From an uncultured delta proteobacterium (GTDB lineage: Bacteria; Myxococcota; Myxococcia; Myxococcales; 40CM-4-68-19): a DNA stretch of 64,000 nucleotides. The notes beneath the pieces are model-generated. The model worked only from the letters and a program-made list of their open reading frames with translations. It did no database searches and had not been told where the DNA came from. The stretch covers positions 1-64,000 of the forward strand of contig CAIWCD010000028.1 of NCBI GenBank assembly GCA_903911145.1. Direction: 5' to 3'. The position numbers and the translations under genes were made by a program. Shown piece after piece: positions 9,523-28,942 of the stretch; positions within the stretch are counted from its first letter, which is position 1; the number at the start of each line of letters is the position of its first letter.

Positions 9523-9610
9523 GGAGGAGTGGCCGAGCGGCTGAAGGCGGCGGTCTTGAAAACCGTTAACCCGCGAGGGTTCGCAGGTTCGAATCCTGTC
9601 TCCTCCACCA
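9523..9610 (+). tRNA. tRNA-Ser (TGA)
   Basis: Acceptor strands GGAGGAG (9523-9529) and CTCCTCC (9600-9606) pair perfectly. The anticodon loop CTTGAAA contains anticodon TGA, a long class II variable arm follows, then the T loop GGTTCGAATCC. CCA is encoded at 9608-9610. Confidence 0.97.
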
Positions 9611-11365: not shown

Positions 11366-12214
11366 ATGACGAAACACGAGCACACGTTCTCCCTCGGTGG
11401 ACAGAGCGCCTGGTTTCATGAGGAGGGCTTCGACTATGGCCCGGTGCATACCTACGACGCGCTCAAGGTCGGCGGTCCCGACGACCTCCCGCGCAAGGTG
11501 CACGTGCTGGTGCCGCGCGATTATGCCGAGAGCCGCGAGCGTTATCCGACGTTCTATCTGAACGACGGACAGACCGCGCTCTTCCCGGGCGGCACGATGG
11601 GCAAGTGCTGGAGCATCGGGCAGACGATGAGCGCGCTGTTCGCGGAGGGAAAGATCGCGCGGTCCTTGATTGTCGCGGTCCATCCGCTCGTGCGCGATCG
11701 GGAATATACCCACGCGCAGGGAATGCCCGGCTCGCAGTTCGGCGGCCTCGATGACTATGCGGGATATATCGCCGGGCCATTAAAGACGTTCATCGACAAG
11801 AACTATCGGACCGACCCTTCGGCCGAGAAGAGCGCGACGGTCGGCTCGTCGCATGGCGGCCTCGCGGCGTTCTATACAGCCTGCAAGTATCCCGACCGCT
11901 TCCGCCGCGCCTTTGCGCTCTCTCCCTCCTTCTGGGTCGGTCGCGGCGATTCGATGAGCAGCTCGCCGCTGGTCACCGCACTGCGCGAGACGTTGATTGA
12001 TCGCACGCGCCGGCCTGATATCTGGATCGACTGGGGACTCATTCGCGACGGCGCCGTGCGCGGCGCGCGCGAGATGGCGGCGCTGCTGCAATCGGAGTTC
12101 AAGTACGAGCTCGGCCGCGACCTCTGGATTCACGAGGATCGCGAGGGCGGCCACGACGAGGAGTCGTGGGGCCGCCACTTCGGCCTCTTCTCGCAGACGC
12201 TCTATCGTCCTTGA
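11366..12214 (+). CDS. esterase-like alpha/beta hydrolase (PF00756 type)
   Basis: A 282-residue protein of the esterase D/enterochelin-esterase fold. 'RYPTFYLNDGQTALFPGG' near 59-76 is the typical strand and oxyanion region. GSSHGGLAAF at 160-169 holds the nucleophile Ser162, and GGHDEESWGRH at 261-271 holds the catalytic His. No signal peptide, so probably cytoplasmic, unlike many relatives. ATG 11366 has GAGGTGAG about 7 bases upstream. It stands at the left edge of the amidoligase cluster in the same orientation as the GATase trio, but two minus-strand genes lie between, so membership in the pathway is inferred. Confidence 0.85.
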   Translation: MTKHEHTFSLGGQSAWFHEEGFDYGPVHTYDALKVGGPDDLPRKVHVLVPRDYAESRERYPTFYLNDGQTALFPGGTMGKCWSIGQTMSALFAEGKIARSLIVAVHPLVRDREYTHAQGMPGSQFGGLDDYAGYIAGPLKTFIDKNYRTDPSAEKSATVGSSHGGLAAFYTACKYPDRFRRAFALSPSFWVGRGDSMSSSPLVTALRETLIDRTRRPDIWIDWGLIRDGAVRGAREMAALLQSEFKYELGRDLWIHEDREGGHDEESWGRHFGLFSQTLYRP

Positions 12215-12230
12215 TGGGCGCGGGGGAGCG

Positions 12231-12578
12231 CTACTTCGCGATCGGGCAGAGCAGCGCGTGTCCGCTCATCGCCACCTCGACGAGGCTTCCTCGCGGCTGG
12301 CTCCCGTTCGTATCGATGAAGACGTAGTTCGCGTTGACGCGGAGAGCGGCGTTGCGCATGTCGTTCGTCGCGCCGCGCGTGGCCTCCGCGATATCCGACG
12401 AGATCGCCGTGCCGTGCACCTCGGCGAGCACCGTGCAGTTGGGCCGCTGCTCGGCCGACACTTCGATGGCCAACGCGCCGCGATCCGCATTGGGTACCTG
12501 CTCGAAGGGCACACAGGCGACGCCGGTCATGACGAGAAAGAGAGCTGCGACTGTCTTCAGGAAGTTGAACGATCTCAT
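12231..12578 (-). CDS. DUF4156 lipoprotein
   Basis: A 115-residue lipoprotein with a signal sequence ending in VTGVAC (lipid Cys22, reading MRSFNFLKTV...). The mature part has the DUF4156 pattern: a first Cys in 'RPNCTVLAEV', ATNDMRN-A-R-NANYV in the middle, and a second Cys close to the end (ALLCP). The two Cys probably form a disulfide. GGAG lies 5-6 bases before ATG 12578. Function unknown. It is the only exported product in the 11.4-21.9 kb cluster and may simply be a bystander. Confidence 0.8.
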   Translation of the reverse strand: MRSFNFLKTVAALFLVMTGVACVPFEQVPNADRGALAIEVSAEQRPNCTVLAEVHGTAISSDIAEATRGATNDMRNAALRVNANYVFIDTNGSQPRGSLVEVAMSGHALLCPIAK

Positions 12579-12648
12579 GGTGACACTCCGTTGAGAGGGC
12601 TGCTCAACGGGGTGGACTGGCCACCATGAAGATGTGACCAGACGGTCG

Positions 12649-13863
12649 CTACTTTGCGGCTGCATCCTTCGCGTGCTCGAGCGCCATCGCCACTGCGGCC
12701 TTGGCCTGAATCGCGCCCCAGCCCTGCCGATCGATCTCGAGGTTCGGCAGCCGCTTGGCCGTCTTGATGAGGATTAACTTAATCTGCTGCGGCGTTAACT
12801 TCGGGTTGGCTTCGATCATCTGCGCCACGAGCGAAGTCACGATGGGCGCAGCGAAGCTGGTGCCGTCGACCATCTTGTAATGCTCGTCGATCACGAGTCC
12901 ATCGCGCAGTCCCGACGCGATGACGTGGCGGATGAGATAAGGCGGCTGCGCGCGCACTTCGTCGAGCGCGGGATAGACGCCGAGATTCTCCTCGATGATC
13001 TGCTTGAGATCCGCATCGGCCGCGTGATCGAGCTTCGAGAGCAGCGCGGCCTGCAGCGAGGTGGGCGTGCCGGGGAGGATCGGCGCCGCGATCCAGTCGG
13101 CGAGCGTGACCACCTCGGGCTTCTGGATGCCGTCGATGGTCGGTCCGTACGAGGAGCGATAGCCGGTCGCGGCGCGCAGATGCGGGTTACCACCGTCGTC
13201 GATGCCGCCCACGCTGATCACGGCCGGCACGCTCGCTGGCGGCATGATGTGTCCGGGCCGATGCCCGCTGTTGCCCACGGCCGCGACGACAGTGATCCCT
13301 GCGCGCACCGCCGCCTCGGCGAAGCGCGAGAGGACGTCGTTGAGATACGAAGATTCGTAGTCGCCGCCGCAGGAAATATTCAGGATGCGGATGTTGTGCT
13401 TCTCGCGGTTGACGAGCACCCACTCGATGCCGCGCGCGATGTCGTCGTGGTGCACGCGCGAGAGCGTCCCGACCTTGACGAGCACGAGTTTCAGCTCGGG
13501 GGCGAGCGCGCGGAACCGTCCGCTCGAGAGCGAGCCGTTGCCCGCCGCGACCACCGTCGACATCATCCCGTGCCACGAGGAGGCCTCGGCGACGTGCAGC
13601 GCCTCGAGGCCGCCGCGGTGGCCGACGAGATCGTGATAGCCGAGCACGCGCCCCTCGATGTCGGGATGCGCGTAGAAGCCGGAGTCGAGGAAGGCCGCGA
13701 CCACGCCCTTGCCGGTGAAGCTCGCGTCGCCGCCGACCCGATCGGAGATGGGCAGCGGCTCGTGGTTGCGCGGGTCGATGGGGCCTGACCGAACTCCCGG
13801 CGAGCTGTTGCGAAATCCTGGTGAACTCGAGCGGGAGCCGTGCGCGTGATTCGGGGACGCCAT
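12649..13863 (-). CDS. subtilisin-family (S8) serine peptidase without signal peptide
   Basis: A 404-residue subtilase with an intact triad: Asp60 in AFLDSGF, His98 in SSWHGMM, and Ser336 in DGTSFAAP. Asn198 in AVGNSG provides the oxyanion hole. There is no hydrophobic signal segment. The N-terminus is a Ser/Pro/Gly/His-rich stretch of about 45 residues, which suggests an intracellular protease without a classical propeptide. Residues 262-325 form an insertion between the Asn and Ser blocks. ATG 13863 has GGAG 6 bases before it; a TTG four codons earlier overlaps that site and is less likely. Divergent from the GATase gene with a gap of only 46 bases. Confidence 0.9.
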   Translation of the reverse strand: MASPNHAHGSRSSSPGFRNSSPGVRSGPIDPRNHEPLPISDRVGGDASFTGKGVVAAFLDSGFYAHPDIEGRVLGYHDLVGHRGGLEALHVAEASSWHGMMSTVVAAGNGSLSSGRFRALAPELKLVLVKVGTLSRVHHDDIARGIEWVLVNREKHNIRILNISCGGDYESSYLNDVLSRFAEAAVRAGITVVAAVGNSGHRPGHIMPPASVPAVISVGGIDDGGNPHLRAATGYRSSYGPTIDGIQKPEVVTLADWIAAPILPGTPTSLQAALLSKLDHAADADLKQIIEENLGVYPALDEVRAQPPYLIRHVIASGLRDGLVIDEHYKMVDGTSFAAPIVTSLVAQMIEANPKLTPQQIKLILIKTAKRLPNLEIDRQGWGAIQAKAAVAMALEHAKDAAAK

Positions 13864-13909
13864 TTTAATCTCCAAATGAAACGCCCACTATAGGGTAGAG
13901 TGGCTCCAC
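13864..13909. promoter_or_regulatory. 46-bp divergent promoter region
   Basis: The gap between the divergent subtilase and GATase start codons contains ACTATA at 13888-13893. On the minus strand this reads TATAGT, a plausible -10 box for the subtilase. An imperfect inverted repeat (CCACT...AGTGG) surrounds it. With so little space the two promoters must overlap. Confidence 0.35.
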
Positions 13910-14818
13910 ATGGCCGCTCCTTCGTTGCGTCTCTGCCTGGTTGACATGAACAACGGCGTGCCCAATGAGGCCACGCGCTGCTTCCGCCGCATCTTCGAGG
14001 CGTTCGAGCACAAGGTTGTTGCGGCCAATCCCGGCCTCTCGGTTTCACTCGTGCACGTGCAGCCGCGCAACTTAGGCGAGCTGCCCCCGCGCGAGGTCGA
14101 CCTGGTGCTCAGCTCGGGCGGACCGGGCGCGCCGACCGATGGCTATGACGAGGCCTGGTGCACTGGCTATCGCCACTTCCTCGATCGCGTTCTGTCTGAC
14201 AACGCCACGGGGCGCCGCGATGCGACCGGCCTCTTCGTCGTCTGCCACTCGTTCGAAATCACCGTCACGCACTTCGGCTTCGCCAAGCTGGTGCCGCGCT
14301 CGGCACTCAAGTTCGGCGTGTTCCCCGCCTACGTCACCGACGCGGGCGCGCGCAGCATCCTCTTCGAGCCGTTCGACGATCGCCGCCTCTTCACCTGGGA
14401 GCATCGCAAGTACGAGACGGTCGATCTCGACGAGAAGATGCTCCATGCGCAGGGCGGCGAGCTGCTCGCGACCGAGAGCCGGCCGGGCGGCGTCGACAAG
14501 GGTCGCGGCCTGATGGCGTTCGATTTCGGCCCCGGCATCATGGGCACGCAATTTCATCCCGAGGCGGATCGTCCGGGCGTGCTCGCGTGGATCAATCGCC
14601 CCGATCACGCCTATGCCGTGAAGGATGCGTACGGCAACGATCTCTACGAGCGGATGATCACGACGCTGAAAGATCCGACGCGCCTCGCGCGCACGTATGC
14701 GCTCGCGATCCCCAGCTGGCTCGAGCACCGCTTTAATCGCATCGCGGAGGCGCGCGGCCTGAATCCAATCGGTCCTCCCGAGCAGGACATGCGGATGTTC
14801 GAAGCCGAAGCTTCTTGA
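13910..14818 (+). CDS. class I glutamine amidotransferase-like protein
   Basis: A 302-residue stand-alone GATase-1 domain. SSGGPGAPTDGYDE at 68-81 matches the glycine-rich oxyanion strand. The nucleophile-elbow Cys112 lies in VVCHSFE. MGTQFHPEAD at 211-220 supplies the catalytic His216 and Glu218. The elbow lacks the usual G-x-C-x-G glycines (V before and S after), so the pocket differs from GuaA/TrpG-type enzymes. The substrate may be glutamine, a gamma-glutamyl compound or another amide. It is first of three plus-strand genes (GATase, ATP-grasp, GCS2) spaced 55 and 16 bases apart. No signal peptide. Confidence 0.85.
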   Translation: MAAPSLRLCLVDMNNGVPNEATRCFRRIFEAFEHKVVAANPGLSVSLVHVQPRNLGELPPREVDLVLSSGGPGAPTDGYDEAWCTGYRHFLDRVLSDNATGRRDATGLFVVCHSFEITVTHFGFAKLVPRSALKFGVFPAYVTDAGARSILFEPFDDRRLFTWEHRKYETVDLDEKMLHAQGGELLATESRPGGVDKGRGLMAFDFGPGIMGTQFHPEADRPGVLAWINRPDHAYAVKDAYGNDLYERMITTLKDPTRLARTYALAIPSWLEHRFNRIAEARGLNPIGPPEQDMRMFEAEAS

Positions 14819-14873
14819 ATTCAACCACGCACGCGGCTGCACCTATCCACCAACGAATCGAAGGGGTCAAAAC

Positions 14874-15848
14874 GTGACGGAGAAGATCGGAATCATCGTC
14901 GGCTGGGAGGACAGCTTTCCCCAGGCGTTCATCGCGAAGGTCAACGAGACGCCGGGCTTTCACGCGGAGATCGCGAAGATTGGCGGCACGCCGGAGAACT
15001 TCAAGCCGGACTATCGCGTGCTGATCGATCGATTAAGCCACGAGGTTCCTTTCTATCGATATCATCTCAAGGCTGCGGCTCTCGCCGGCACCTATGTGAT
15101 TAACGATCCGCACTGGTGGGCCGCGGACGAGAAGTTCTTCGGCTTCTCGATTGCCTCGAAGATCGGCGTGAATGTCCCGCGCACGGTGATGCTCCCGCAG
15201 CGCGCTTATCAACCGTCGATCGATCCGCAGCGGTCTCTTCGCAATCTCGAATATCCGCTCAATTGGGAGAAGATTACCGAGTACGTCGGCTTCCCTGCGG
15301 TGCTCAAGCCGGCGGACGGCGGCGGTTGGAAGCAGGTCTCGCGCGTAAACAACATGGCGGAGCTGCTTCGCGATTACAACCGCAGCGGCACCACCGTCAT
15401 GACGCTGCAGCAATATATCGACTTCGATGAATATGTCCGCTGCATCTGCATCGGCAAGGAGTTCATCCTTCCGATCAAGTACGACCCGCGCAAGCGCTGC
15501 TATGTCGAGACCAATGGCTTCTTGCCCAAGGCGCTCGAGCAGAAGATCCTCGACGGTTGCTGGGCGCTCAATCACGCGCTCGGTTACGACATGAACTCGG
15601 TCGAGTTCGCCTGCAAGGACGGCGTGCCCTACGCCATCGATTTCACCAACCCCGCGCCGGATATGGACGTCTATTCAATCCTGCCCAAGCATTTCAAGAT
15701 CTGCGTCGACGAGATGGCGAAGTTCGCCATCAAGGTTGCGCGCGAGGGTCGCAAGAACCACGACGGATATGCGTTCCGTCAATATCTGGCCCATCCCAGC
15801 AAGCGGCCCGCGGGTCTCTGCGAGTTTGTTCCGGCTGTGAAGACTTAA
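14874..15848 (+). CDS. ATP-grasp ligase (RimK-like group)
   Basis: A 324-residue ATP-grasp protein. The N-terminal pre-ATP-grasp domain opens 'EKIGIIVGWEDSFPQAFI'. The sequence 'INDPHWWAADEKFFGFSIA..GVNVPRT' marks entry to the fold. Next come the first ATP-binding lysine strand 'FPAVLKPADGGGWKQV', 'QQYIDFDEYVRCICIG', and the metal-site strand 'YAIDFTNPAPDMD'. Enzymes of this fold activate a carboxylate as acyl phosphate and join it to an amine. GTG 14874 has GAAGGGG about 8 bases before it. The neighbouring GCS2 and GATase genes suggest amide or peptide bond formation on a small molecule. Confidence 0.85.
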   Translation: MTEKIGIIVGWEDSFPQAFIAKVNETPGFHAEIAKIGGTPENFKPDYRVLIDRLSHEVPFYRYHLKAAALAGTYVINDPHWWAADEKFFGFSIASKIGVNVPRTVMLPQRAYQPSIDPQRSLRNLEYPLNWEKITEYVGFPAVLKPADGGGWKQVSRVNNMAELLRDYNRSGTTVMTLQQYIDFDEYVRCICIGKEFILPIKYDPRKRCYVETNGFLPKALEQKILDGCWALNHALGYDMNSVEFACKDGVPYAIDFTNPAPDMDVYSILPKHFKICVDEMAKFAIKVAREGRKNHDGYAFRQYLAHPSKRPAGLCEFVPAVKT

Positions 15849-15864
15849 TCGAAACGGGGCGCAT

Positions 15865-16968
15865 ATGATCGACGGTCAATTCACGCTCGGCGTCGAAGAG
15901 GAGTATCAGATCGTCCACCCGGAGACGCGCGACCTCGTCTCCTATGTCAGCAAGATCATCGAGGGCGGCAAGACCGTGCTGCGCGAACGCGTGCGGCCGG
16001 AGATGCACCAGTCGATGGTCGAGGTGGGCACCTCGATTTGCAAAGACGTTGGCCAGGTGAAGAGTGAATTGATCGAGATGCGCACGGAGCTTGACCGCCT
16101 CGCGCGCAATGGCGGCCTGCGCATCGTCGCCGCCTCGACGCATCCGTTCGCCGATTGGAAGCTGCAGGACATTACCGACCACCATCGCTATCACCATCTC
16201 GTGATCGATCTGCAGGACGTGGCGCGCGCCAATCTCATCTTCGGATTGCACGTTCACGTCGGGATTAAAGACAAGGAAGTGGCGATCGCGCTGGCCAACC
16301 AGGTCCGCTATTTCCTGCCACACTTATTGGCGCTCTCCTGCAGTTCGCCGTTCTGGATGAATCGCAAGAGCGGTCTGATGAGCACGCGCTCGCAGATCTT
16401 CAAGCGCTTCCCGCGCACGGGCATTCCCGACGAGTTCGAGAGCGCGAGCCAGTTCGACGAGTTCGTCAAGCTGCTCGTGCAGACCGGCTGCATTGATAAT
16501 GGCAAGAAGCTCTGGTGGGACGTCCGCTCGCACCACGTCTTCGACACGGTCGAGATCCGCATCTGCGATATGCCGACCTCGATGGAGCATACGGTTGCGC
16601 TCGTTGCGTTAATCCAGGCCTTAATGGCCAAGCTCTATCTGATGTACAAGCGCAATACCTCGTGGCGCACGTATCGGCGCAGCTTGATTGAAGAGAACAA
16701 GTGGCGCGCGGTCCGTTACGGCAGCGACGCGAAGTTAATCGACCTGGGGATGAAGCAGGAGCGGCCGTTCGCCGAGCTCGTGCGCGAGTTGGTCGAGTTC
16801 GTCAGCGAGGCGAGCGATCAGCTCGGGACGACCGGTCATATGAAGAAGATTATCGAGATCGCCGATACCGGGACGAGCGCGCATCGGCAGATTGAGGTCT
16901 TCGAGAAGACGAAGGATATGAAGGCCGTCGTCGATTGGCTGATGAGCGAGACGATGCGGGGGATTTAA
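15865..16968 (+). CDS. YbdK/GCS2-family carboxylate-amine ligase
   Basis: A 367-residue member of the glutamate-cysteine ligase family 2 fold (glutamine-synthetase-like). LGVEEEYQIV at 8-17 carries the metal-binding acidic residues; 'EVGTSICKDV', 'FGLHVHVGIKDKE' and 'TVEIRICDMPTSMEH' follow in the family order. The YbdK group has weak gamma-glutamylcysteine ligase activity in vitro; true substrates are mostly unknown. It starts 16 bases after the ATP-grasp gene. Its TAA stop overlaps the stop codon of the opposing gene: the four bases TTAA at 16965-16968 serve both. Confidence 0.9.
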   Translation: MIDGQFTLGVEEEYQIVHPETRDLVSYVSKIIEGGKTVLRERVRPEMHQSMVEVGTSICKDVGQVKSELIEMRTELDRLARNGGLRIVAASTHPFADWKLQDITDHHRYHHLVIDLQDVARANLIFGLHVHVGIKDKEVAIALANQVRYFLPHLLALSCSSPFWMNRKSGLMSTRSQIFKRFPRTGIPDEFESASQFDEFVKLLVQTGCIDNGKKLWWDVRSHHVFDTVEIRICDMPTSMEHTVALVALIQALMAKLYLMYKRNTSWRTYRRSLIEENKWRAVRYGSDAKLIDLGMKQERPFAELVRELVEFVSEASDQLGTTGHMKKIIEIADTGTSAHRQIEVFEKTKDMKAVVDWLMSETMRGI

Positions 16969-18167
16969 TCCGCGCTCCACATCCCGACGCTGCCGCCAAC
17001 CCAGGTGAGGCCGCGGTTGAAATCCACGCCGAGCATCTTCCCGCGCGATAAGCGCACGAGGCAGATCACGGGGCGCAGCTCGGTGGCATTGGGCGGGCGC
17101 GCCAGCATCACGCGCACCTCTGCTTTGACGCCATTGCCATCGGGCATCGTAATCGCGTTCGCGTAATCGATCTTCTCCTGCAGCACCCACTGCGCGCGCT
17201 GCTCATCCGGGATCCGATCGATATGCTCCCGCGTGACATCGACCACCACTCCCGCTCCGGCAAACGAGAAGAGCGGCTTGAGTACATAGCGGGAGAGATC
17301 ATCGGGCAGCGTGGAGATATCGCTGAGAAACTGCGCGCGCGGCACGGCCGGGTGGTTGAGCGACGGCAGCGAGAACTTCGACCAGGTCCAATACCAGTTT
17401 GGATGCGAGCACCAGCTGATATCGAGCGGCTCGTTCCATTCGAAGGGAACGACCGCCTTCTTCACCTCCAGCTCGTCGAAGACCATCCGGTTGTAGATGC
17501 GCTTGACCTGGATCAAGCCGCCGTTGCGCTTGCGATAGAGCGCGCGGCCCTTCTTGATCAGCTCGGTCACGCAGACCGACTCGACGCCGAAGAGCTGCCG
17601 GGTTGCCTCGAAATCCGGCGCAGTCTTTTGCTCGGACGGCTTGATATCAACGAGAGCGACCTCGAGAGGGTCCTCGTCGGCGACGATCGTCTTGCGCAAG
17701 AGCTCCATCGCGGCCGACGGCTCGTCGATCGACCATCGCCAGTCGGCCTTTAACCCAGGAATTCGATTGAGCGTGACGGCCCAGGCATCGGCCATCACGG
17801 GCATCAATGCATATAAAGAAGGAAAGGCCTGCAACTCGACAACGCGGCCCTCCATCTCTCCCGAGGAATTGTGCGTTAATGCGAAGTCAACCTGCACGCA
17901 GTTGGGAAGCGGGTCCATTCCTGGCACATCGTAATGAGCAGGGATCGCCTTCTTTAATCTTTCGAGAAGTGCCGGCTCGGAGAGCTGCCCAACGATTTCG
18001 CGCGAGCTGCGTGCGAGCCAATCGCGCAGGTCGTGCGTCATCATCAGCGGCGTCTCGGCCACCTGGAACGGAATCGGCCCGACCTGCGACACCATGCGCT
18101 GCACGAACTCGTCGAAGAGCGGCTGATTAAAAGCGGCATTAAAGAGCGGGCGGCGCGCTGGATCCAC
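16965..18167 (-). CDS. ATP-grasp-like protein of unknown family
   Basis: A 400-residue protein. The C-terminal half has ATP-grasp features: 'LSRYVLKPLFSFAGAGVVVDV' as the first Lys strand, 'AQWVLQEKIDYA' as the central Glu strand, and 'VKAEVRVMLARP' next. The N-terminal half ('NCVQVDFALTHNSSGEMEGRVVELQAFPSLYALM') resembles circularly arranged or diverged ligase folds that I do not recognise. GTG 18167 is preferred: GAGG lies 5 bases upstream and the start is 10 bases after the stop of the upstream gene, giving a tight operon. The frame continues upstream but only as overlap. Last gene of the minus-strand quartet. Confidence 0.65.
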   Translation of the reverse strand: MDPARRPLFNAAFNQPLFDEFVQRMVSQVGPIPFQVAETPLMMTHDLRDWLARSSREIVGQLSEPALLERLKKAIPAHYDVPGMDPLPNCVQVDFALTHNSSGEMEGRVVELQAFPSLYALMPVMADAWAVTLNRIPGLKADWRWSIDEPSAAMELLRKTIVADEDPLEVALVDIKPSEQKTAPDFEATRQLFGVESVCVTELIKKGRALYRKRNGGLIQVKRIYNRMVFDELEVKKAVVPFEWNEPLDISWCSHPNWYWTWSKFSLPSLNHPAVPRAQFLSDISTLPDDLSRYVLKPLFSFAGAGVVVDVTREHIDRIPDEQRAQWVLQEKIDYANAITMPDGNGVKAEVRVMLARPPNATELRPVICLVRLSRGKMLGVDFNRGLTWVGGSVGMWSAD

Positions 18168-18177
18168 GGTGGCCTCG

Positions 18178-19374
18178 TTAGTTCGACGGCCGGGCAACGG
18201 CCGGCAGGACCGCGCAGAAGTCGCGCCCGAACCGCTCGACGTAGTTCTCCAGCAACTGCTGCACGCGCGCATGCTTCGTCGCACGGACGACGAGACCGGC
18301 GTGGTTGGCCTCGGGTGCGTGGTAGACGATCTCGGGATCGGTATAGGCAGAGAAGTCGGGCCGCTCCTGCCGCGCCAGCGTCATTAAAACGCCGCCGTAC
18401 TCCTCGCGCGTCTTCGGCAACTGATAAGCGGGAGTGCCGCGATCGATCTCGATGTTCGCCCACTCCTGCCAGAGATTGATTCCGGTCGAGGCCTCGATCA
18501 TTTCTGCGATATGAGCGCCGCCGACGCGGGCCGCGCTCTCGAGCATGTAGAACTTCCCGTCGACGCTCGAGCGGATGAACTCGACGTGCGAGACGCCGCG
18601 GACCAGACCCAGCTTGGTGAGGATCTGATCGTTGATTGCCTTGAGTGCCAGTTCATCGGCGCTGCCGCGCTCGACCGTGCTGGTGGCGAAGATCCCGCCG
18701 CCGTGCGCGACGTCAAAGGGCGGACGGCGGCACTGGTGGCAAGCGGCGAAGACGACCTTGCGCTCGGAGACGATGGAATCGACATGATAGACGTCGCCGG
18801 GGAGATATCGCTCAAGCAGGAAGTGCGACGCGCGATCTCCCTTCTTCTCAATCTCGCGCCAGAGCTGCTCCGCGTTCTGGATCTTGCCGATGCCGGAAGC
18901 GCTCGCCTCCGAGCGCGGCTTGAGCATCCACGGCGCCGGCACGCGCGCGATGAACTCGCGGATCGCGTCGTAATTGAGGACGTGCACGAATTCGGGAACC
19001 GGAATTCCCTCCTCCTGCGCCTTCACCCGCATCGCCAGCTTGTCGCGGAAATGGCGCGCGGTGGTATCGCCCATTCCCGGAATGCGCAGATGCTCGCGCA
19101 GCGCGGCCGCGACCTCGACGTCGTAATCGTCCATCGGAACGATCCGGTCGATGCGCACGGAGCGCGCGAGATAGGAGACTGCGTTGAGCGTGTGCTCAAG
19201 CGGGCTGCCGTTCGCCTGCGCAAACACCTCGGTGATCGACTCGCGGGGCCAGGGGCTCTTGAGCAGCTTCTCCTGCGTCAACAGATAGACCTTCGCACCG
19301 CGCTTGTGGGCCTGCTGCATGAAGCGCTCGCCCTTGAAGTAGCTGGCGAGCACCAACAGATTCACGTCGGACAC
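18178..19374 (-). CDS. ATP-grasp ligase (carbamoyl-phosphate-synthase-like group)
   Basis: A 398-residue ATP-grasp protein. The N-terminal Rossmann-like domain (VNLLVLASYFKGERFMQQA, then a strand at IVPMDDYDVEVAAAL) leads to the ATP-grasp part. Landmarks are 'PWMLKPRSEASASGIGKI' (Lys strand and glycine loop), 'HFLLERYLPGDVYHVDSIV' (hinge Glu) and 'FYMLESAARVGG' (metal strand). This order is seen in D-Ala-D-Ala-ligase/biotin-carboxylase-like peptide ligases. GTG 19374 has a perfect AAGGAGG 6 bases upstream. It lies 15 bases after the M61 gene. Confidence 0.88.
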   Translation of the reverse strand: MSDVNLLVLASYFKGERFMQQAHKRGAKVYLLTQEKLLKSPWPRESITEVFAQANGSPLEHTLNAVSYLARSVRIDRIVPMDDYDVEVAAALREHLRIPGMGDTTARHFRDKLAMRVKAQEEGIPVPEFVHVLNYDAIREFIARVPAPWMLKPRSEASASGIGKIQNAEQLWREIEKKGDRASHFLLERYLPGDVYHVDSIVSERKVVFAACHQCRRPPFDVAHGGGIFATSTVERGSADELALKAINDQILTKLGLVRGVSHVEFIRSSVDGKFYMLESAARVGGAHIAEMIEASTGINLWQEWANIEIDRGTPAYQLPKTREEYGGVLMTLARQERPDFSAYTDPEIVYHAPEANHAGLVVRATKHARVQQLLENYVERFGRDFCAVLPAVARPSN

Positions 19375-19389
19375 GTAAGGCCTCCTTGA

Positions 19390-21165
19390 TTAAATCACCG
19401 TCTGAACGCCGTGGAAATTGTTGTAATCGGTCAATGGAACCGAGCTGCCGGCGGCGAGCTCGAACTTGCCCAGCCAGTGGGTGAGGCGCGCCGACTGTTC
19501 AGCGGTGCCGCGCCAGATGAGCGCGCTGAGATAACGCTGCTCGGTGCTCTCGATCGCAAACGTAAAGCGGCGGTGGCCGCGCAGAATCTCCAGCTCGACG
19601 GGCCTGCCGCTCTGCGTGAGCCACTTGAGTGCATTCAATTGAAAAGGATGGCCACCCGCGCGGACGATTTCATCTCCGGGGGCAACCCCGGCAGCGCTGG
19701 CGCGGCCACTGTCGAGCACGTTCGCGACAATCGGTCCCTTATCGTCCTGCAAGACCATTCCCAGAACGCGGCGGGTCTCGTGCTGCACTTGAAAGCCGAG
19801 AGTTTCAAGGAGCGTCTCGGTGCTTAATCTCCCAGCGCTCTCAATCTCGCGCGCGCAGAGCGCATCCAGCGCAGGCCAGCGCGCGGCAATGAAGTGGCGG
19901 AACTGGGCACTGGTAAAGCCTTTGTCCCTGCCGACGTGGCTTCGATAGAACTCACTGAACTCGGCGTCGAGTGTGCTCCCCGCCAGACGCAGGCTCGCGT
20001 CGAGATCAAAAGCGATGAGCATCCCCAGGTCATAGTAATCGACGGTATTATTGACGCTGCCGGGGTATCGATTGTGGTTGAGGAAGGTCGTTAATGATGA
20101 ATCGACGGCGCTGACGCGCTGGTATGCGGGCAACGCTGTGAGGTGGCGAAGGTAATTGACGACATTCGAGAAGAAGCACGATGCGCTGCTTTCGCTCGCG
20201 CGCGAGGAGAGGACGAACTCGTAATACCGGGTGAAGCCCTCGCTGATCCAGAGCGCGTCGGGAAAGCTGCCGTGGGCGTGGTCGGGAGCGCCGAGAGGCG
20301 CGGGCTTTAATCGACAGACGTTCCACGCGTGAAAGAGTTCGTGGGCGCAGACGCGGATGCCATCGAAGCGGGATTTCGGATCGATGAGCGTGTCGTGATC
20401 GAGCGCGATCTGCGTGGCGTTGACGTGCTCAAGGCCCCACGTCGCCTTGGGATTAAACGTGAAGATGAAGGTATAGCTCTCGAATGGATAGCTGCCGAAG
20501 ACGTGCCGTGCCTGCTCGCTGACGGCCATGACGCCGTCGAGGAATGAGTCGAGCTCGGTCTCGAATCCGACGGTGCGATCAAGGAAGACGAAATGGAAAG
20601 GCGTGCCGTGCGAGGTGCGCGTGCGAAGCTCGAAACGGCCCATCGTGACGGGTGTGTCGAGCAGCGCTGAATCGTTCGGGTATTGATATCGATGCGACGG
20701 CAAAGCCGCGCCTGGTGCGGTCGGGAGCGCCGTCGCGCCTGCCGGATGGTGCATCGCCCAACCAGCGGGGAGCAGGTAATCAACCGTGACGGGGCCGATA
20801 TGCGCGGGTGCAAAGAGCTGGCGGGTGCCGAGCAGCACCGCCTGTTCGTGATCGAGGATCCCCGCAAGCTCTCCCCATGCCGTATCGTGCGCGAAGGCCC
20901 GATAGTTGATCAGGATATCCGCACCATTCGATTCAACCTGATATCCCTGCCAGCCTTGGCGCGTGACGACGAGTGGCGCGTTGGTCGCGGCATCGCGGGC
21001 TCGGACCGAGAAGACGTCGCGGCCATACTTCATGAAGCCATAGGCACCGGGCACCCAGGTCGGCACCTCGAGGATAACCGGCCCGGCGAGGCCGCTGAGG
21101 CGCAGCTCGATGGCGAGTTCGTGCGCCTGCGGGAGGATCTCGATGCGGTAGTGCGCCTGGCTCAT
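19390..21165 (-). CDS. M61-family metallopeptidase with PDZ domain
   Basis: A 591-residue M61 (glycyl aminopeptidase) family protein. The N-terminal beta domain begins 'YRIEILPQAHELAIELRL'. 'EVPTWVPGAYGFMKYGRDV' is a family signature. The zinc site is HELFH at 275-279 with the third ligand Glu309 in WISEGFT, and GLEHVNAT at 244-251 precedes it. A PDZ domain occupies about 480-560 (GMVLQDDKGPIVANVL, GDEIVRAGG). No signal peptide, whereas some relatives are exported. It sits 12 bases after the esterase stop. Known members cleave N-terminal Gly or Ala; here it may trim a product of the neighbouring ligases (inference). Confidence 0.9.
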   Translation of the reverse strand: MSQAHYRIEILPQAHELAIELRLSGLAGPVILEVPTWVPGAYGFMKYGRDVFSVRARDAATNAPLVVTRQGWQGYQVESNGADILINYRAFAHDTAWGELAGILDHEQAVLLGTRQLFAPAHIGPVTVDYLLPAGWAMHHPAGATALPTAPGAALPSHRYQYPNDSALLDTPVTMGRFELRTRTSHGTPFHFVFLDRTVGFETELDSFLDGVMAVSEQARHVFGSYPFESYTFIFTFNPKATWGLEHVNATQIALDHDTLIDPKSRFDGIRVCAHELFHAWNVCRLKPAPLGAPDHAHGSFPDALWISEGFTRYYEFVLSSRASESSASCFFSNVVNYLRHLTALPAYQRVSAVDSSLTTFLNHNRYPGSVNNTVDYYDLGMLIAFDLDASLRLAGSTLDAEFSEFYRSHVGRDKGFTSAQFRHFIAARWPALDALCAREIESAGRLSTETLLETLGFQVQHETRRVLGMVLQDDKGPIVANVLDSGRASAAGVAPGDEIVRAGGHPFQLNALKWLTQSGRPVELEILRGHRRFTFAIESTEQRYLSALIWRGTAEQSARLTHWLGKFELAAGSSVPLTDYNNFHGVQTVI

Positions 21166-21177
21166 ATCAATCGCCGA

Positions 21178-21939
21178 TTACCAGCCAAGGCGATTGCCGA
21201 CGTAATGGTCGAGCATCTTCCGCCACGTCGGCCAATCGTGGGAAATGTCGTATCCCCAGAGGTCGAGGTTGTTCCAGATGCCCTTGTCCCAGAGCAGTTT
21301 CGAGAGCCGCGCGGAGGCCTCAGGCAGCTCGAACGAGCCGCGCCCGGAGAGCAGATGGATCTGGCTGTGGCGTATCAACTCGAGCGTTCCCTCGTCGTGC
21401 AGGTTGGGGAGGAACGACATCGGGTTGTTGAAATAGGCCTCGTCGCCCCCATATCCCTTCAGGTAATCGCCGCGCAGGTCGTAGAACCCGCTCATGCCGA
21501 TCAGCGTGTCGAAGAGATCCGGCCTGCGGAAGAAGGCGTTGCCGGCGTGGAAGGCGCCGAAGCTCGCGCCCGAGACGCCGATGCGCGCGCGGGGATCTCC
21601 GATGGCGCGGCGGATATGAGGAACGACTTCCTCCTCGACATATCCCGAATAGAGCACCTGCCGGCGCGCCTTCTCCGGCACCGGGATCTTCTTATTCATC
21701 CACGCATGCTTGTTGATGCTGTCGATGGAGAAGACTTGAAGGCGGCCCGCAAAGATGTGCTGCTCGATCGACTTGATGAGAAAGAAGCGCTCGTTCTCGA
21801 GGAAGTCGGCCTGGGCTGTGGGAAAGAGCAGCAGCGCCTTGCCGCGGGTGCCGTAGCGGACGATGGGCATCGGCAGGCCGAGGCGGGGGCTGTGCCAACC
21901 GAAGAGCTCTCGAGGAAGCGCGGGATCGATGAATTGCAT
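21178..21939 (-). CDS. esterase-fold hydrolase (COG4947-like)
   Basis: A 253-residue alpha/beta hydrolase of the putative-esterase type. 'MPIVRYGTRGKALLLFPTAQ' is the first strand. SGASFGAFHAGN at 123-134 contains nucleophile Ser126, and DISHDWPTWRKML close to the C-terminus supplies the His. No signal peptide. It is the first gene of the minus-strand quartet (esterase, M61, ATP-grasp, ATP-grasp-like) and is divergent from an amidohydrolase gene by 63 bases, which must hold the operon promoter. Confidence 0.85.
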   Translation of the reverse strand: MQFIDPALPRELFGWHSPRLGLPMPIVRYGTRGKALLLFPTAQADFLENERFFLIKSIEQHIFAGRLQVFSIDSINKHAWMNKKIPVPEKARRQVLYSGYVEEEVVPHIRRAIGDPRARIGVSGASFGAFHAGNAFFRRPDLFDTLIGMSGFYDLRGDYLKGYGGDEAYFNNPMSFLPNLHDEGTLELIRHSQIHLLSGRGSFELPEASARLSKLLWDKGIWNNLDLWGYDISHDWPTWRKMLDHYVGNRLGW

Positions 21940-23493: not shown

Positions 23494-23979
23494 TTACTTC
23501 TTGATAAACAGCGCCGAGAGCTTCTCCCCGCGCGCCGTGAGGTCGTGGATGCGCCAGCCATTGGGCATCTTCACGAGCTCGACAATCACCGTCTGCGGCT
23601 TTCCCCGATTGATAAACTTCACTGTTCCGATCGCCTTATCCTTGCCCTGTTGCTGCACGGAGATATCGAGCTTGTCGACCGTCCACTCCTGGGCGTTGAT
23701 AAACGGATCGCCCGCGAGCGTCGGGATATCCCCGACTTTCTGGGCAATGGTCCGATCGGCAATGATCGGCATGGCCAGCTCGGGCGCGAAGTATCGGTTG
23801 ATATCCGCATTCGAAGTCAGCAGCGTGCCCTTGGCATTCTTCCCTGGATATCGATCGTAGATATCGTGCAGGAATGCCTTCGCTGCCGGATCGCTCTTCG
23901 CGCTCTCTGCCGCGATTGCGAGCGGAGAGGCGAAAGCAAGCAGCGCGAGCGTCGTGAGGGCCGCTCCGATGCGGTTCAT
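23494..23979 (-). CDS. small exported protein, DUF3828-like
   Basis: A 161-residue protein with a clear signal peptide (ending PLAIAAES). The mature domain has 'AKAFLHDIYDRYPG', 'INRYFAPELAMPIIADR', 'EWTVDKLDISVQQQ' and 'VIVELVKMPNGWRIHDL', the arrangement of DUF3828/NTF2-like exported proteins. Its start overlaps the stop of the upstream Stig1-like gene in an ATGA. Function unknown; probably periplasmic. Confidence 0.72.
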   Translation of the reverse strand: MNRIGAALTTLALLAFASPLAIAAESAKSDPAAKAFLHDIYDRYPGKNAKGTLLTSNADINRYFAPELAMPIIADRTIAQKVGDIPTLAGDPFINAQEWTVDKLDISVQQQGKDKAIGTVKFINRGKPQTVIVELVKMPNGWRIHDLTARGEKLSALFIKK

Positions 23980-26396
23980 CGCTTCACCCGCGCGGGATTG
24001 AGGTTCGTGACCGAGCCCACGTCATTCACGATGACGACGCCGATATCCTCTCCTCCGGGCGCGGCGGACTGCTCGCAATTGTACCACTCGCCGATAAAGG
24101 CCCGCAGAGGGTAGACGCCGGGAGTCGTCGGCGCCACGATGAAGAAGTCTGCAGTCGTCGACTGCAGGTTCGAGAATCCCTGGCCTGCCTGATTCGGGGT
24201 CGACGGGCAGTAGACGACCGGATCGCTCTGGTTGTCGATCAGCGCAATCGCGAAGAAGTCGATGCAGCCAGGACACCCTCCCTGGTTGATCGTGTCGTTG
24301 GCGTCACGCCACCAGCTGTAGTTCATCTGGACGTGCAGGGGCGCGCCAGGCACGACATTGATCACGGGTCCGAAGGCGACATTGGGAGAGGAATTGCTGA
24401 GGACGACGCCCTCGACGATGATTCCGGCAAAGTCGGGATTCGCGGTGCTCCTGTGGTTGAACTGGTGCACCGGATCCGTGTGCCCGTCATCCCCGCGATA
24501 GGCGAACCAGGTCACGGTCTGGTTATCGAGCAGAACGGATGCGGGACTTGACGATTCAAAAACTCCCGGAGGAGGGCTGCCGTTCGTGAGGACCAGTGCG
24601 CCGCCATCCAGTGGGATTCCACCGTCGAGAGAATAGAAAATCACGGGCGGTGAGCCGTTGGGAGAAGGCGGTGACGCGATCGTATAGTTCGTCGCCCGGG
24701 CGCGCGTGGCACTCCCGAGCGGATATCCGGGCGAGATATATGCGTCATCGCTATCGGCATATCCGCAGAGCCCCTTCTGGCAGATCTCGTTGAGCGCGCA
24801 GGCGTTGCCGCAGCTGCCGCAATGATTGGGGTCGTTGATGATATCCGCGCACGCGAAGTGGCCGTTGCCCTCGCTGCAAAATGCCAGCGCTCCACAGATT
24901 GGTTCGCAGACGCCGTTCGTGCAGCTGTTGCCCGTGGTGCAGATATTCGTTCCGCCGTCGGGGTTTCCGCAGCCGCCGCAGTTCTGCGGATCGTTCATCG
25001 TGTCGACGCAGGCAGGGTTGCCGTTGCCATCGCTGCACTGCGCGAGCGGCGAGACGCAGGCGTCCACGCACGCGGCCTGCGCGCAGACCTGGTTTGCTCC
25101 GCACACCGCTCCGCCAGCATTTGCGCAGCCTCCGCAGTTGTTCGGATCTCCCGCGGTATCGATGCAGCTCGTGCCGCCGTTGCCATCGCTGCAGACCACG
25201 AGCGGCGCGCTGCACGCGGGCGCGCAGTTGCCCTGTGCGCAAAACTCGTTCGCCGCGCAGACCTTGCCGCCATTGCTCGCGCAGCCGCCGCAGTTGTTCG
25301 GATCTCTCGCGGTATCGATGCAGCTCGTGATGCCGGCTTCATCCCGACAGACCTGGAGCGGGTCGCTGCATGCGGGCGCGCACGTGCCCTGCGCGCACAC
25401 CTCATTCGCTGCGCAGGTCAACCCTCCGGCGCCGGGGCATCCGCCGCAGCTGTTCGGGTCTCCAAGCGTATCGACGCAGCTGACCCCGCCATCCGGCGTG
25501 CTGCAGGTCGCGAGCGGAGACAAGCAGGCGGTCGTGCACTTTCCGAGAGCGCAGACCTCTCCGCTCTGGCAGACGTGGCCACCCGCGCCTGCGCAACCGC
25601 CGCAATTGTTCGGGTCGCCGTTGGTGTCGATGCAGAGCGCGCTGCCGTCGGACTGTCCGCACGTGGTCAGCGGCGAGGCGCACTCGTTCGCGCAGGCTCC
25701 GTGAACACAGAGTTGGTGCGCGCCGCAAGTGACGCCGCCCGTGCCGTTGCAGCCACCGCAGTTCGCGGGATCGTTCAACGGGTCGGCGCAGTAGAGGCCG
25801 CCGGCGGCCGCCGTGCATTGCACTTTCGGCGACGCGCAGGAGGTCACGCACTTGCCTGCCGAGCAGAGCTCACTGTCGCCGCACGCGTTCCCGCACGCTC
25901 CGCAGTGCGCCGGATCGTTGCGCGTGTCGGCGCAGTATGAGGCCGCGCCCGACGTCGCGGGGCAGGTCGTCAACGGCGCCGCGCAGAGCGGCTCGCATGC
26001 ACCGCTCGCGCAGATCTCGTTGCTGGAGCAGGCGTTGCCGCACGCGTGGCAGTTCGCCGAGTCTCTCTCGAGATCGGCACAGATGGTCCCGCCGTCCGTC
26101 GTCGAGCAGGCGGTCAGATTCGCGCTGCACGCACTCGCACAAACACCGTTGGAGCAGACATCACTGCCGGTGCACGATGTTCCGCACGCGCCGCAGTTTG
26201 CCGCCGTGTTGATGTTCGTGCAGACGCCGCCGCAGAGCTTCTCTCCGAGCGGGCAGGTGCTCGCCGTCTCGCAGAATCCATCGATGCCGCAGACCAGGCC
26301 CGACGCACACTGTGCATTCGACGTGCAGGGGATCTTCCCTTCGCTGATTGTGCAGGCGGTGCAGCAGAGCAGGGCGATGAGCAGCGATCGAGTCAT
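23976..26396 (-). CDS. Stig1-like cysteine-repeat lipoprotein with C-terminal beta domain
   Basis: An 806-residue predicted surface lipoprotein (LLCCTAC, lipid Cys15). About a dozen tandem units of roughly 40-52 residues follow. Each has a core like 'DPNNCGGC...CGANQVCAQGAC...C' and resembles plant Stig1 and bacterial multi-Cys repeats. The final 250 residues are Cys-poor and beta-rich, with 'YTIASPPSPNGSPPVIFYSLDGG' recalling chitobiase C-terminal/FN3-like modules. ATG 26396 has CTGGAG about 7 bases upstream. Proteins of this kind are often mislabelled as tryptophan synthase alpha chain; nothing here supports that. Likely extracellular, disulfide-stapled. Confidence 0.8.
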   Translation of the reverse strand: MTRSLLIALLCCTACTISEGKIPCTSNAQCASGLVCGIDGFCETASTCPLGEKLCGGVCTNINTAANCGACGTSCTGSDVCSNGVCASACSANLTACSTTDGGTICADLERDSANCHACGNACSSNEICASGACEPLCAAPLTTCPATSGAASYCADTRNDPAHCGACGNACGDSELCSAGKCVTSCASPKVQCTAAAGGLYCADPLNDPANCGGCNGTGGVTCGAHQLCVHGACANECASPLTTCGQSDGSALCIDTNGDPNNCGGCAGAGGHVCQSGEVCALGKCTTACLSPLATCSTPDGGVSCVDTLGDPNSCGGCPGAGGLTCAANEVCAQGTCAPACSDPLQVCRDEAGITSCIDTARDPNNCGGCASNGGKVCAANEFCAQGNCAPACSAPLVVCSDGNGGTSCIDTAGDPNNCGGCANAGGAVCGANQVCAQAACVDACVSPLAQCSDGNGNPACVDTMNDPQNCGGCGNPDGGTNICTTGNSCTNGVCEPICGALAFCSEGNGHFACADIINDPNHCGSCGNACALNEICQKGLCGYADSDDAYISPGYPLGSATRARATNYTIASPPSPNGSPPVIFYSLDGGIPLDGGALVLTNGSPPPGVFESSSPASVLLDNQTVTWFAYRGDDGHTDPVHQFNHRSTANPDFAGIIVEGVVLSNSSPNVAFGPVINVVPGAPLHVQMNYSWWRDANDTINQGGCPGCIDFFAIALIDNQSDPVVYCPSTPNQAGQGFSNLQSTTADFFIVAPTTPGVYPLRAFIGEWYNCEQSAAPGGEDIGVVIVNDVGSVTNLNPARVKR
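25132..25329 (-). repeat. near-identical tandem units, 156-bp period
   Basis: A 42-base stretch at 25132-25173 recurs at 25288-25329 with one mismatch. The offset is 156 bases (52 codons) inside the Stig1-like gene. The match is much closer than between other units of the gene, pointing to a recent duplication or gene conversion. Confidence 0.75.
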
Positions 26397-26419
26397 GTGG
26401 AGCTCCAGAAAGTTGCCCA

Positions 26420-28942
26420 TCAGTGCGCCACCGCGAAGAGGGCGATGGCGGCGCAACCGAGCGCCGCACCGACGCCGATGAGGATGTTCGTCGCCGCCTG
26501 CGCGTGCGTGACCTTCTGCTGCAGCGAGACCACATCGGCTGCGCTGTGTCCTCCCGCGGAGAGCTGGTTCGATGCGCTCTTTCCCTCGGCATATGCGATC
26601 GCAGCACCACCAAAGCCCAAGAGGCTCGCGCCCGCGAGTGAGTAGGTGAGCACGCGAACACCCTTGCTCGGCCCGCTGCTCTCCACGGTCGGCAGCGCCT
26701 CGGGCGGCGCGGCCGGTTTCGGCTCTTCGGGAACCGGTTCGCACTTTGGCAGCGGAGTGTTCTCGACCGCACTGGGCGCGGCTTTGCTCGCATCGACGAC
26801 GGGCTCCGCGGGCGCGTCGACGATCGTCACCGCGTTCGGCTGCTCCGGAGATCCCACGCGCGTCGGGCCATTGGCCGCGTTGTCATAGGCCTCGAGGTAG
26901 TAGGCGAATCCGTCCATCACCACGGCTGCCGGAACCTCGGCGATGTACTGATCCTTGCCGGTCGGCTCCATCGGCTGGCACTTCATCTCCGAGTGGAAGC
27001 CGTTGCGGTAGCAGGCCTGCGGACCGAAGACGCCGCTCTTGTCGTCGGTGATGTGGGCTTCGAGGTGGAGCGCCTGCCCACGCACCGCCTGCGCCACGAG
27101 CTCATGCGCGATTTTCGGCGGCGTCACGTCCTCGTCGACGCTCTCGGCGTGCCCCTTGCCCGACGCCTCGCAGCCCTCCGCGAGCTGCTTGGCGCGCCCG
27201 CGCAGATTCGAGTTGGGCGCCAGTGTGATGAACGAGCGGAACGCCGTCGCGCACTGCTTGAACTCGCCCTGCTTGCGGCGCACCTGCGCGATGTTGAAGA
27301 GCAGGTCCGGCAGGTGCCGCACCTCGAAGGCAGCCTGGTATCCGGCGAGCGCGCAGGGGTAATCGCCCTGCAGCCAGCAGGCCTGTGCGCGACGCACCTG
27401 CGCACGCGCGACCTCGAGCGGATCGGGCGGCGCGCTGGTCTCAGCAGGACGCAGCGGCTTGAGTGAGACGGCGAGGCGAAGCTCGAAGTCGTGCGAGTCG
27501 GGAACCTTCAAGGTCGCCGTGCGCGTGACGTAGCCGTCGAGCACGAGCTTCATCGCGTGCTCGCCAGGTGTGCTCTTCGTCTTGATCGGAGTCTCGCCGA
27601 GCAGCTTGTCATCGAGATAGAGCTGCGCGCCGCGCGGCTCGGTCGCGACCGCGATGATCGGTGGTCCGGGCGCAGCGCTCGCGGGTGAGAGCGGAATGCG
27701 CAGCGCGAGCTGCTCGCCCGCCTCGACAGAGATCTGCTGCGCGACTCCCTTGAAGCCTTCCTTCTCCGCCTCGATGTTGTGCTCGCCCGGTGCCAGCTCT
27801 CCGGAATAAGGCGCCGGTCCGACGGCCTTGCCATCGATCGACACCGTCGCGCCCGCGGGATCGCTCTCGATGCGCACCTTCGCGGGCCCGGGAATTCGCT
27901 GCAGCGTGAACGTCGCGTCAGTCTCGCGATTGTCCTGCGCCTCGAGTTCGCGCGTCTCGGCGCGATAGCCCTCGAGCTCGAGCAACAGCGTGTGCTTGCC
28001 CGCCGCCAGCTCGGCGCTCCACGGCGTGAATCCCTGGCTCTTGCCGTCGATCTTCAGCGCCGCTCCTTGCGGCGTGGAGGTGACGACCAGCTGCGGCTTT
28101 GTGGATTGAGTCGGCTCAGGCAGCGCGAATCGGAGCGATAGATCGCTCCCCGCAGGCATCGAGAAATCGCTCGCGAGCTCGTGACGGCCCGTGAGTCGCA
28201 GCGCCACCTTGTGCGCTCCTGGGGCGATCGCGCCGACGAAGGGAGTCGTGCCGCGCTCGGCTCCATCGATGAGCACCTGCGCGCCCGTGGGGAGCGATTC
28301 GATCGTCACCGCCGGCTCCTTCGGCAGCGCGATCAGCGCAACGCTCAGGTCCTTGTCGCGCGACGGCTCGAGCGTGAACTCGCGCTTCTGGACGAGATAG
28401 CCCTTCTGCTCGAGCTGCAGCGTGTGCGCGCCGGGCTGCTGCATCGCCTTGAACGGGGTCGTGCCGACCTTCTTCCCGTCGATCAGCACCATCGCGCCTG
28501 AGGGTTCACTCGTGACGACGAGCTGCGAGTTGCGCGGCGCGGGCGGCTCGAGCTTCACGTCGGGCGCGGGCGCGGGCGGCGGAGTCGGTGCGGCGACCGC
28601 GCTTCCTTCTGGCGGCTCCTTCATCGTGACGCGAAACGGCTGATCCGCAGAGCCGTCCTGCGTCGCATCGCCATGCTCATGGTTCGAGAGGATGAAGAAC
28701 TCGAATCCATCGCCCGCGCCGAGGTAGTTGGGCAGGCGCACGACAAATCGATTGTGGCCCCGGTCCTCCATCGGAAAACCTTCGAACCGCTTCTTCCCCG
28801 ACTGGCGCGCGTAGCACTGTGGCGCGAAGCTCGTCGAGGCGTCTTCGATCACCGCGCGAATGTAGATTGGCTGACCGCGAACGGCCTGTTCGATCGGAGT
28901 GTGTTGAATCGCAGCAACGGCGAGCAGAAGACTGAGGAACAA
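26420..28942 (-). CDS. PEGA-repeat/TPR envelope protein
   Basis: An 840-residue protein. After a short signal segment come a beta domain (about 15-105), a Pro-rich linker, and five PEGA repeats at about 138-205, 208-275, 283-350, 354-420 and 427-490. Each repeat has the pattern 'vtSePsGA.v.iDGk..G.TPf..ä.pG.H.l.le..Gy'. A TPR-like stretch follows (about 505-590, QACWLQGDYPCALAGYQAAF), then a second copy of the beta domain and a C-terminal pair of membrane segments. TTG 28942 has GGAG 6-7 bases upstream. First of a three-gene unit with the Stig1-like gene (23-base gap) and the DUF3828-like gene. PEGA repeats bind surface polymers or proteins in other systems. Confidence 0.87.
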   Translation of the reverse strand: MFLSLLLAVAAIQHTPIEQAVRGQPIYIRAVIEDASTSFAPQCYARQSGKKRFEGFPMEDRGHNRFVVRLPNYLGAGDGFEFFILSNHEHGDATQDGSADQPFRVTMKEPPEGSAVAAPTPPPAPAPDVKLEPPAPRNSQLVVTSEPSGAMVLIDGKKVGTTPFKAMQQPGAHTLQLEQKGYLVQKREFTLEPSRDKDLSVALIALPKEPAVTIESLPTGAQVLIDGAERGTTPFVGAIAPGAHKVALRLTGRHELASDFSMPAGSDLSLRFALPEPTQSTKPQLVVTSTPQGAALKIDGKSQGFTPWSAELAAGKHTLLLELEGYRAETRELEAQDNRETDATFTLQRIPGPAKVRIESDPAGATVSIDGKAVGPAPYSGELAPGEHNIEAEKEGFKGVAQQISVEAGEQLALRIPLSPASAAPGPPIIAVATEPRGAQLYLDDKLLGETPIKTKSTPGEHAMKLVLDGYVTRTATLKVPDSHDFELRLAVSLKPLRPAETSAPPDPLEVARAQVRRAQACWLQGDYPCALAGYQAAFEVRHLPDLLFNIAQVRRKQGEFKQCATAFRSFITLAPNSNLRGRAKQLAEGCEASGKGHAESVDEDVTPPKIAHELVAQAVRGQALHLEAHITDDKSGVFGPQACYRNGFHSEMKCQPMEPTGKDQYIAEVPAAVVMDGFAYYLEAYDNAANGPTRVGSPEQPNAVTIVDAPAEPVVDASKAAPSAVENTPLPKCEPVPEEPKPAAPPEALPTVESSGPSKGVRVLTYSLAGASLLGFGGAAIAYAEGKSASNQLSAGGHSAADVVSLQQKVTHAQAATNILIGVGAALGCAAIALFAVAH

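Follow-up and report, generated by a model that had tools for sequence, protein, structure and literature searches.

We examined a gene cluster at positions 11366 to 21939 of contig CAIWCD010000028.1, within a 64-kb window (the whole stretch of 64,000 nucleotides analyzed here) of a 5.3-Mb genome in 53 contigs from an uncultured Myxococcia bacterium of the 40CM-4-68-19 lineage. An earlier note on this DNA had described nine genes, encoding three ATP-grasp proteins, a GCS2-type ligase, a class I glutamine amidotransferase (GATase), an M61 metallopeptidase, a subtilase, and two esterases; all nine are present as judged from open reading frames (ORFs) and profile matches, and the coordinates bear out the strands, the tail-to-tail meeting, and the close packing that it had reported. 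A plus-strand trio encodes the GATase-fold protein (GAT), an ATP-grasp ligase (AG1), and GCS2, and a minus-strand quartet encodes an esterase (Est2), M61, and two further ATP-grasp proteins (AG3 and AG2), the tails of trio and quartet overlapping by 4 bases at the GCS2/AG2 boundary (15865–16968/16965–18167). The subtilase (S8) is divergent from the trio across 34 bases when its start is placed at a TTG at 13875, or across the 46 bases noted earlier when counted from the ATG at 13863. A tenth gene, absent from that description, is a DUF4156 ORF on the minus strand (12231–12665) between the other esterase (Est1) and S8, with which it shares 17 bases. In order along the DNA the intergenic distances are 16, −17, 34, 55, 16, −4, 10, 15, and 12 bases, the two negative values being these overlaps, and every gap is 55 bases or shorter. 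We rejected a graspetide (a ribosomally synthesized and post-translationally modified peptide) since these gaps leave no space for a precursor gene, a verdict limited to the cluster because genes outside it were not screened.

Four of the products are putative ligases. GCS2 (15865–16968, plus strand) is a YbdK-type carboxylate–amine ligase (PF04107, 206.7 bits) whose best model, PRK13515 (NF010039), scores 508.6 bits against a cut-off of 371 and whose nearest solved relative is YbdK (PDB 1r8g, E = 5e-49); a GshA-type glutamate–cysteine ligase was discarded as an identity, every such model scoring under its cut-off. AG1 (14874–15848, plus strand) is a Ddl/LysX/RimK-type ATP-grasp ligase, the AlphaFold model of which (predicted local distance difference test score, pLDDT, 89) matches Ddl, ArgX/LysX, and RimK, and in which K145, E244, D256, and N259 are invariant in the family alignment. 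Membership in RimK was rejected, the rimK_fam model giving 44.2 bits where 143.4 are required. AG3 (18178–19374, minus strand; PF13535, 31.3 bits) resembles L-amino acid ligases, the nearest solved one by sequence being PDB 4wd3 (E = 6e-15), and conserves K152, E265, E279, and R283, with no curated model above cut-off. CphA-type models reach about 21 bits with AG3 against cut-offs of 850 or more, and a cyanophycin synthetase was rejected on this basis.

The remaining ligase candidate, AG2 (16965–18167, minus strand, GTG start), is matched by no Pfam or NCBIfam model, and a comparison of its sequence with the PDB gives nothing meaningful. Its predicted fold (AlphaFold model, mean pLDDT 86) is that of the glutathione synthetase (GSS) and glutathionylspermidine synthetase (GspS) branch of the ATP-grasp superfamily, in keeping with its earlier label of ATP-grasp-like. 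The model matches PDB 3n6x (E = 2e-13), yeast and human GSS, and, among glutathione-synthetase-fold structures, 1m0w, 2hgs, and 8fbz (E = 6e-11 or better); E. coli GspS, YgiC, YjfC, and Cp1B (9cjn, E = 4.9e-10) are matched as well. Solved GSS-fold enzymes share 11 to 17% identity with AG2. Of the structure prediction that had been proposed for all three ATP-grasp proteins, the AG1 and AG2 folds were thus modeled and matched, and AG3 was placed by sequence.

The hydrolases of the cluster have, like GAT, AG1, AG3, and GCS2, active-site residues that are conserved family-wide. S8 (12649–13863, minus strand; PF00082, 128.7 bits) carries a D64/H102/S340 triad, numbered on the 408-residue form that starts at TTG 13875, which is conserved across 20 members. 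M61 (19390–21165, minus strand; PF05299, PF17899) has an HExxH motif at residues 275 to 279, E309, and a PDZ domain (PF13180). Est2 (21178–21939, minus strand) is an alpha/beta hydrolase with a PF00756 score of 20.4 bits, just below the cut-off of 22, and a G124-x-S126-x-G128 motif with H234 conserved across 47 members. Est1 (11366–12214, plus strand; PF00756, 84.7 bits) is an enterochelin-esterase-like alpha/beta hydrolase whose membership in the cluster is uncertain here. GAT (13910–14818, plus strand) has the class I GATase fold with invariant C112, H216, and E218. A simple hydropathy test revealed no clearly hydrophobic N-terminal export segment in any of the nine enzymes, and S8 and M61 lack a signal peptide. 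The antiphage defense models of PADLOC gave S8 nothing beyond a match to a generic subtilase and weak hits to IetS, and the other eight proteins no match at all; this candidate was dropped.

Several cytosolic proteases tied to ligases, one of which (AG1) has the fold of RimK and LysX/ArgX, enzymes with protein substrates, could point to a cycle of protein modification, in which proteins would receive a peptide or amino acid tag from the ligases, to be taken off or processed by the peptidases and esterases. The packing of the genes leaves no more room for a tag or carrier gene than for a precursor, the cluster proteins give no Pup-ligase, LysW-like, or proteasome match, and AG1 scores far under the RimK-family cut-off (44 versus 143), all of which makes protein tagging unlikely.

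To place the cluster in the context of related genomes, we searched the class with AG1 and compared the surroundings of its orthologs with all proteins of the window. The search yielded 14 genomes, our own included, with orthologs of at least 59% identity; gene calls in the GC-rich comparison loci were based on codon usage. Two modules emerge. Module A, S8-GAT-AG1-GCS2, recurs across the Myxococcia loci, S8 adjoining GAT in most of them. Module B consists of AG2-AG3, joined in the closest loci (L032 and L044) by M61, of which both have orthologs, by Est2, and by a fourth ATP-grasp protein that is an AG1 paralog (about 42–45% identity). AG2 lies tail to tail with GCS2 wherever both share a contig stretch, and with AG1 in L033, where GCS2 is missing. 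Variants carry added genes: an M17 aminopeptidase in L040, L042, and L043 and a PGM1/IQCH-type ATP-grasp protein in L033. Est1 does not adjoin the cluster in the other Myxococcia loci compared, and relatives of it (29–36% identity) adjoin Est2-AG1 in Gemmatimonadota loci. Neither Est1 nor the DUF4156 gene is a firm part of the recurrent unit.

This conservation is far beyond chance; the genes did not come together at random. The earlier note had proposed a functional unit of several amidoligases and hydrolases, which the recurrence of both modules supports, and among its grounds for abandoning it were gene order conserved nowhere and parts occurring separately in close relatives; gene order is kept in Myxococcia loci, and close relatives lack the whole set and do not carry scattered parts. 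What needs refining is the single nine-gene arrangement: the genes are linked, but as two modules without Est1 as a firm member and with a wider core in other phyla.

Myxococcaceae and related bacteria have a sister cluster (L047–L050; positions 5254–14919 in L047) that encodes AG1-like, Est2-like, GCS2-CBS, and AG3-like proteins together with an S51-type protein, an enterochelin-esterase-like protein, and an AstE/AspA-type enzyme. In it, AG1-like and GCS2-CBS ligases stand beside an AstE/AspA-type enzyme and the S51 protein, a member of the cyanophycinase family; this pairing, and the general logic of ligases with a dedicated hydrolase, would suit a cyanophycin-like storage polymer of nitrogen or carbon that is made and mobilized. 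The proteins of the window cluster contain no cyanophycin synthetase or Mur-ligase domain, and S51 and AstE are absent from it, so that we regard a storage polymer as quite unlikely.

Phyletic distribution couples the modules beyond physical linkage. Of 195 Myxococcota genomes, 14 have a strong GAT match (E of 1e-132 or better). These very 14 also have a strong AG2 match (E at most 1e-178), the copy in G157 containing a TGA, and together with G139 they make up the genomes with a strong AG1 match (E at most 1e-106). Counting the class only, AG2 is found in 13 of 147 genomes, all within the 14 that have AG1 (hypergeometric p about 1e-17, uncorrected for phylogeny). Both modules are kept even where they are apart: in G140 about 350 kb separate module A from the AG3-AG2 pair, and in G141 and G142 the pair is on a different contig. 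In G139 (L034 and L046) AG1 is intact, S8 is in pieces, only a fragment of GAT is left, AG2 is missing, and the AG1 paralog is interrupted; judging from this metagenome assembly, the cluster seems to decay as a whole. AG1 had no match in PLSDB, and a plasmid origin was set aside. Separately, G191, which has no core AG1, harbors three distant relatives of AG2, perhaps a sign of another role for this ligase family.

We then scanned named genomes with the AG1 alignment and retrieved at least 523 relatives, of which the best 80 were used to assign phyla and 79 loci to analyze neighborhoods. The best 80 fall in Myxococcota, Chloroflexota, Acidobacteriota, Gemmatimonadota, and Planctomycetota, AG1 being the system's most widespread gene. 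No more than 6 kb from AG1 we find a circularly permuted ATP-grasp protein (CP-ATPgrasp) at 40 of the 79 loci, GCS2 at 35, Est2 at 36, GAT at 11, an M29 peptidase at 10, Est1 at nine, subtilases at eight (plus four with another type), and a gamma-glutamyl hydrolase of family C26 at four. GCS2 is present in zero to two copies per genome in nine Myxococcota checked, and its proximity to AG1 by chance is therefore well under 1% by rough estimate. The families thus recur together in Myxococcia and in other phyla, which answers the co-occurrence search suggested earlier. The wider core is Est2, AG1, CP-ATPgrasp, and GCS2, in five phyla, and the counts around AG1 identify the ligases as the constant part and the hydrolases (S8, C26, M29, M17, and M61) as interchangeable. 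AG2 probably replaces the CP-ATPgrasp of the wider core, because the two profiles align over nearly their full length (E = 2.9e-4, probability 41%) and the two proteins were not seen together at any locus; AG2 gives no profile match to PF14403 (CP_ATPgrasp_2). Acidobacteriota loci such as L100, L099, and L122 have the order GCS2-AG1-CP-ATPgrasp and, after it, genes for an M29 aminopeptidase, Est2, and an O-methyltransferase as well as the conserved families F28 and F23, possibly a tailored version of the pathway.

A C26 gamma-glutamyl-hydrolase-type gene is present in some clusters that lack GAT. Because these hydrolases share the GAT fold, GAT is by analogy more likely to be a hydrolase than a source of ammonia. 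The joint recurrence of C26 and GCS2 in some loci also brings to mind a degradative route, in which the ligases would activate an imported amine or acid, like gamma-glutamylputrescine synthetase, and the hydrolases would break the product down; the Puu pathway likewise joins gamma-glutamyl ligation and hydrolysis. An oxidase, dehydrogenase, or transporter is not among the constant neighbor families of the loci compared, and we consider such a route very doubtful. The patchy distribution of the cluster, in turn, suits secondary metabolism, and the GSS-fold enzyme Cp1B makes the protease inhibitor E-64 (PMC12568646), so that the product could be a bioactive peptide of this kind, the proteases being insensitive targets or a means of self-protection. 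Since the cluster contains no exporter, oxygenase, or tailoring enzyme and the core extends over five phyla, more like the machinery of a general metabolite, this too is quite improbable.

The reading we prefer, with a probability of roughly 0.5, is a cytosolic pathway, independent of nonribosomal peptide synthetases (NRPSs), for the synthesis, trimming, and recycling of a short peptide-like metabolite that probably has a gamma-glutamyl or similar amide link. Four ATP-dependent ligases, two of them of the kinds that make glutathione-like peptides, together with cytosolic peptidases and esterases, fit such a make-and-recycle pathway. From the gene set, its conservation and co-occurrence, the folds, and the active-site residues, we infer substrates, steps, and product along the following lines. 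GCS2 would form the first amide in the manner of gamma-glutamylcysteine ligase, and AG2, acting like glutathione or glutathionylspermidine synthetase, would extend the product. AG3 and AG1 would contribute more amino acid or carboxylate–amine bonds. The role of GAT would be to cleave a gamma-glutamyl amide or to provide ammonia, and maturation or turnover of the product would fall to S8, M61, and Est2 (M17, M29, or C26 in other species). NRPS-free synthesis of small-molecule amides has a precedent in the GSS-fold ligase Cp1B of E-64 biosynthesis (PMC12568646), and amidoligases with linked genes are described as carrying out ligations one after another (PMC4431377). Where the earlier note had left a nonribosomal peptide, a gamma-glutamyl product, and a protein tag side by side, the first two are retained here and the tag becomes the unlikely alternative discussed above.

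Several observations weigh against this pathway. The P-loop of CP-ATPgrasp proteins, KPNDEYGG, has an invariant acid, which the equivalent KPLFSFAG of AG2 lacks; the activity of AG2 as a ligase is therefore not established, and its chemistry may be altered. The concern voiced earlier about inactivated ATP sites thus applies to this acid, most ATP-site residues of the ligases being kept. The GATase assignment of GAT, although backed by the Cys-His-Glu set, is weak by sequence (16.4 bits against a Pfam cut-off of 22.8). A simple tripeptide would not account for the esterases and the subtilase. Finally, AG2, GAT, and core AG1 are absent from the single other genome of the same genus, which is 88% complete and in many contigs, and from the remainder of the family; the unit is therefore accessory. 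No empty site could be defined in the same-genus genome, where the best matches of the flanking amidohydrolase and Est1 are just 40% and 35% identical.

Other features of the window lie outside this pathway. The DUF4156 lipoprotein-like gene (PF13698, 28 bits against a cut-off of 28.9) is not kept in related loci and is probably a bystander; an internal Met as start would yield a lipoprotein signal (MRSFNFLKTVAALFLVMTGVAC). Upstream of the cluster is a tRNA-Ser gene (anticodon TGA) at 9523–9610, and positions 23976–28942 encode a cysteine-rich protein with many repeats of a CGGCGN.C pattern, adjoining a long protein with PEGA-like repeats.

The general kind of system, linked amidoligases with peptidases, is already published, and the present architecture is a variant of it. 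Iyer et al. in 2009 (doi 10.1039/b917682a) reportedly surveyed amidoligase gene neighborhoods with linked ATP-grasp and GCS2-type ligases, as found here, and with linked peptidases as given in the abstract. Here, at least two ligase folds (AG1, AG2, and AG3 plus GCS2) lie in one conserved neighborhood with hydrolases (S8, GAT, M61, and Est2 in the window; M17, M29, and C26 elsewhere), an instance of the general principle restated in PMC4431377. Glutathione, homoglutathione, and glutathionylspermidine synthesis share the GCS2 type of first-step ligase and a second ligase of GSS/GspS fold, but GCS2 here belongs to the YbdK/PRK13515 family, the P-loop of AG2 differs, and the set is enlarged by two further ligases and several hydrolases. 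Cp1B (PDB 9cjn) has the GSS fold like AG2 and makes a pseudodipeptide without an NRPS, in a fungal pathway with an oxygenase and an amide-bond synthetase in place of GCS2 and peptidases. The L-amino acid ligases 4wd3 and 3vot (BL00235) are the closest solved structures to AG3, which is accompanied here by three other ligases. Circularly permuted type 2 ATP-grasp proteins (PF14403, 3n6x) have the fold of AG2 and adjoin AG1 and GCS2 in other phyla, whereas AG2 itself has neither the profile match nor the P-loop acid. Text searches of the literature, thin on subscription papers and so weak as a negative, found no description of this arrangement, of the AG2 family, or of the pattern of constant ligases and variable hydrolases.

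More tentatively, the cluster may represent an undescribed and widespread intracellular peptide or peptide-tag cycle, in which fixed ligases (AG1, a GSS-fold ATP-grasp protein, and GCS2) and interchangeable dedicated hydrolases would yield a glutathione-like cofactor or a reversible modification in at least five phyla. The system lends itself to testing, being compact, naturally missing from relatives, and present as a decayed copy in G139. If the proposed pathway is correct, several phyla would share an uncharacterized, partly glutathione-like route to a small intracellular peptide, with four ligases and recycling enzymes of its own. A function would then be at hand for AG2, as the representative of a GSS-fold ligase family that Pfam does not match, and for AG1, which has hundreds of relatives and no curated family above cut-off among those used here.

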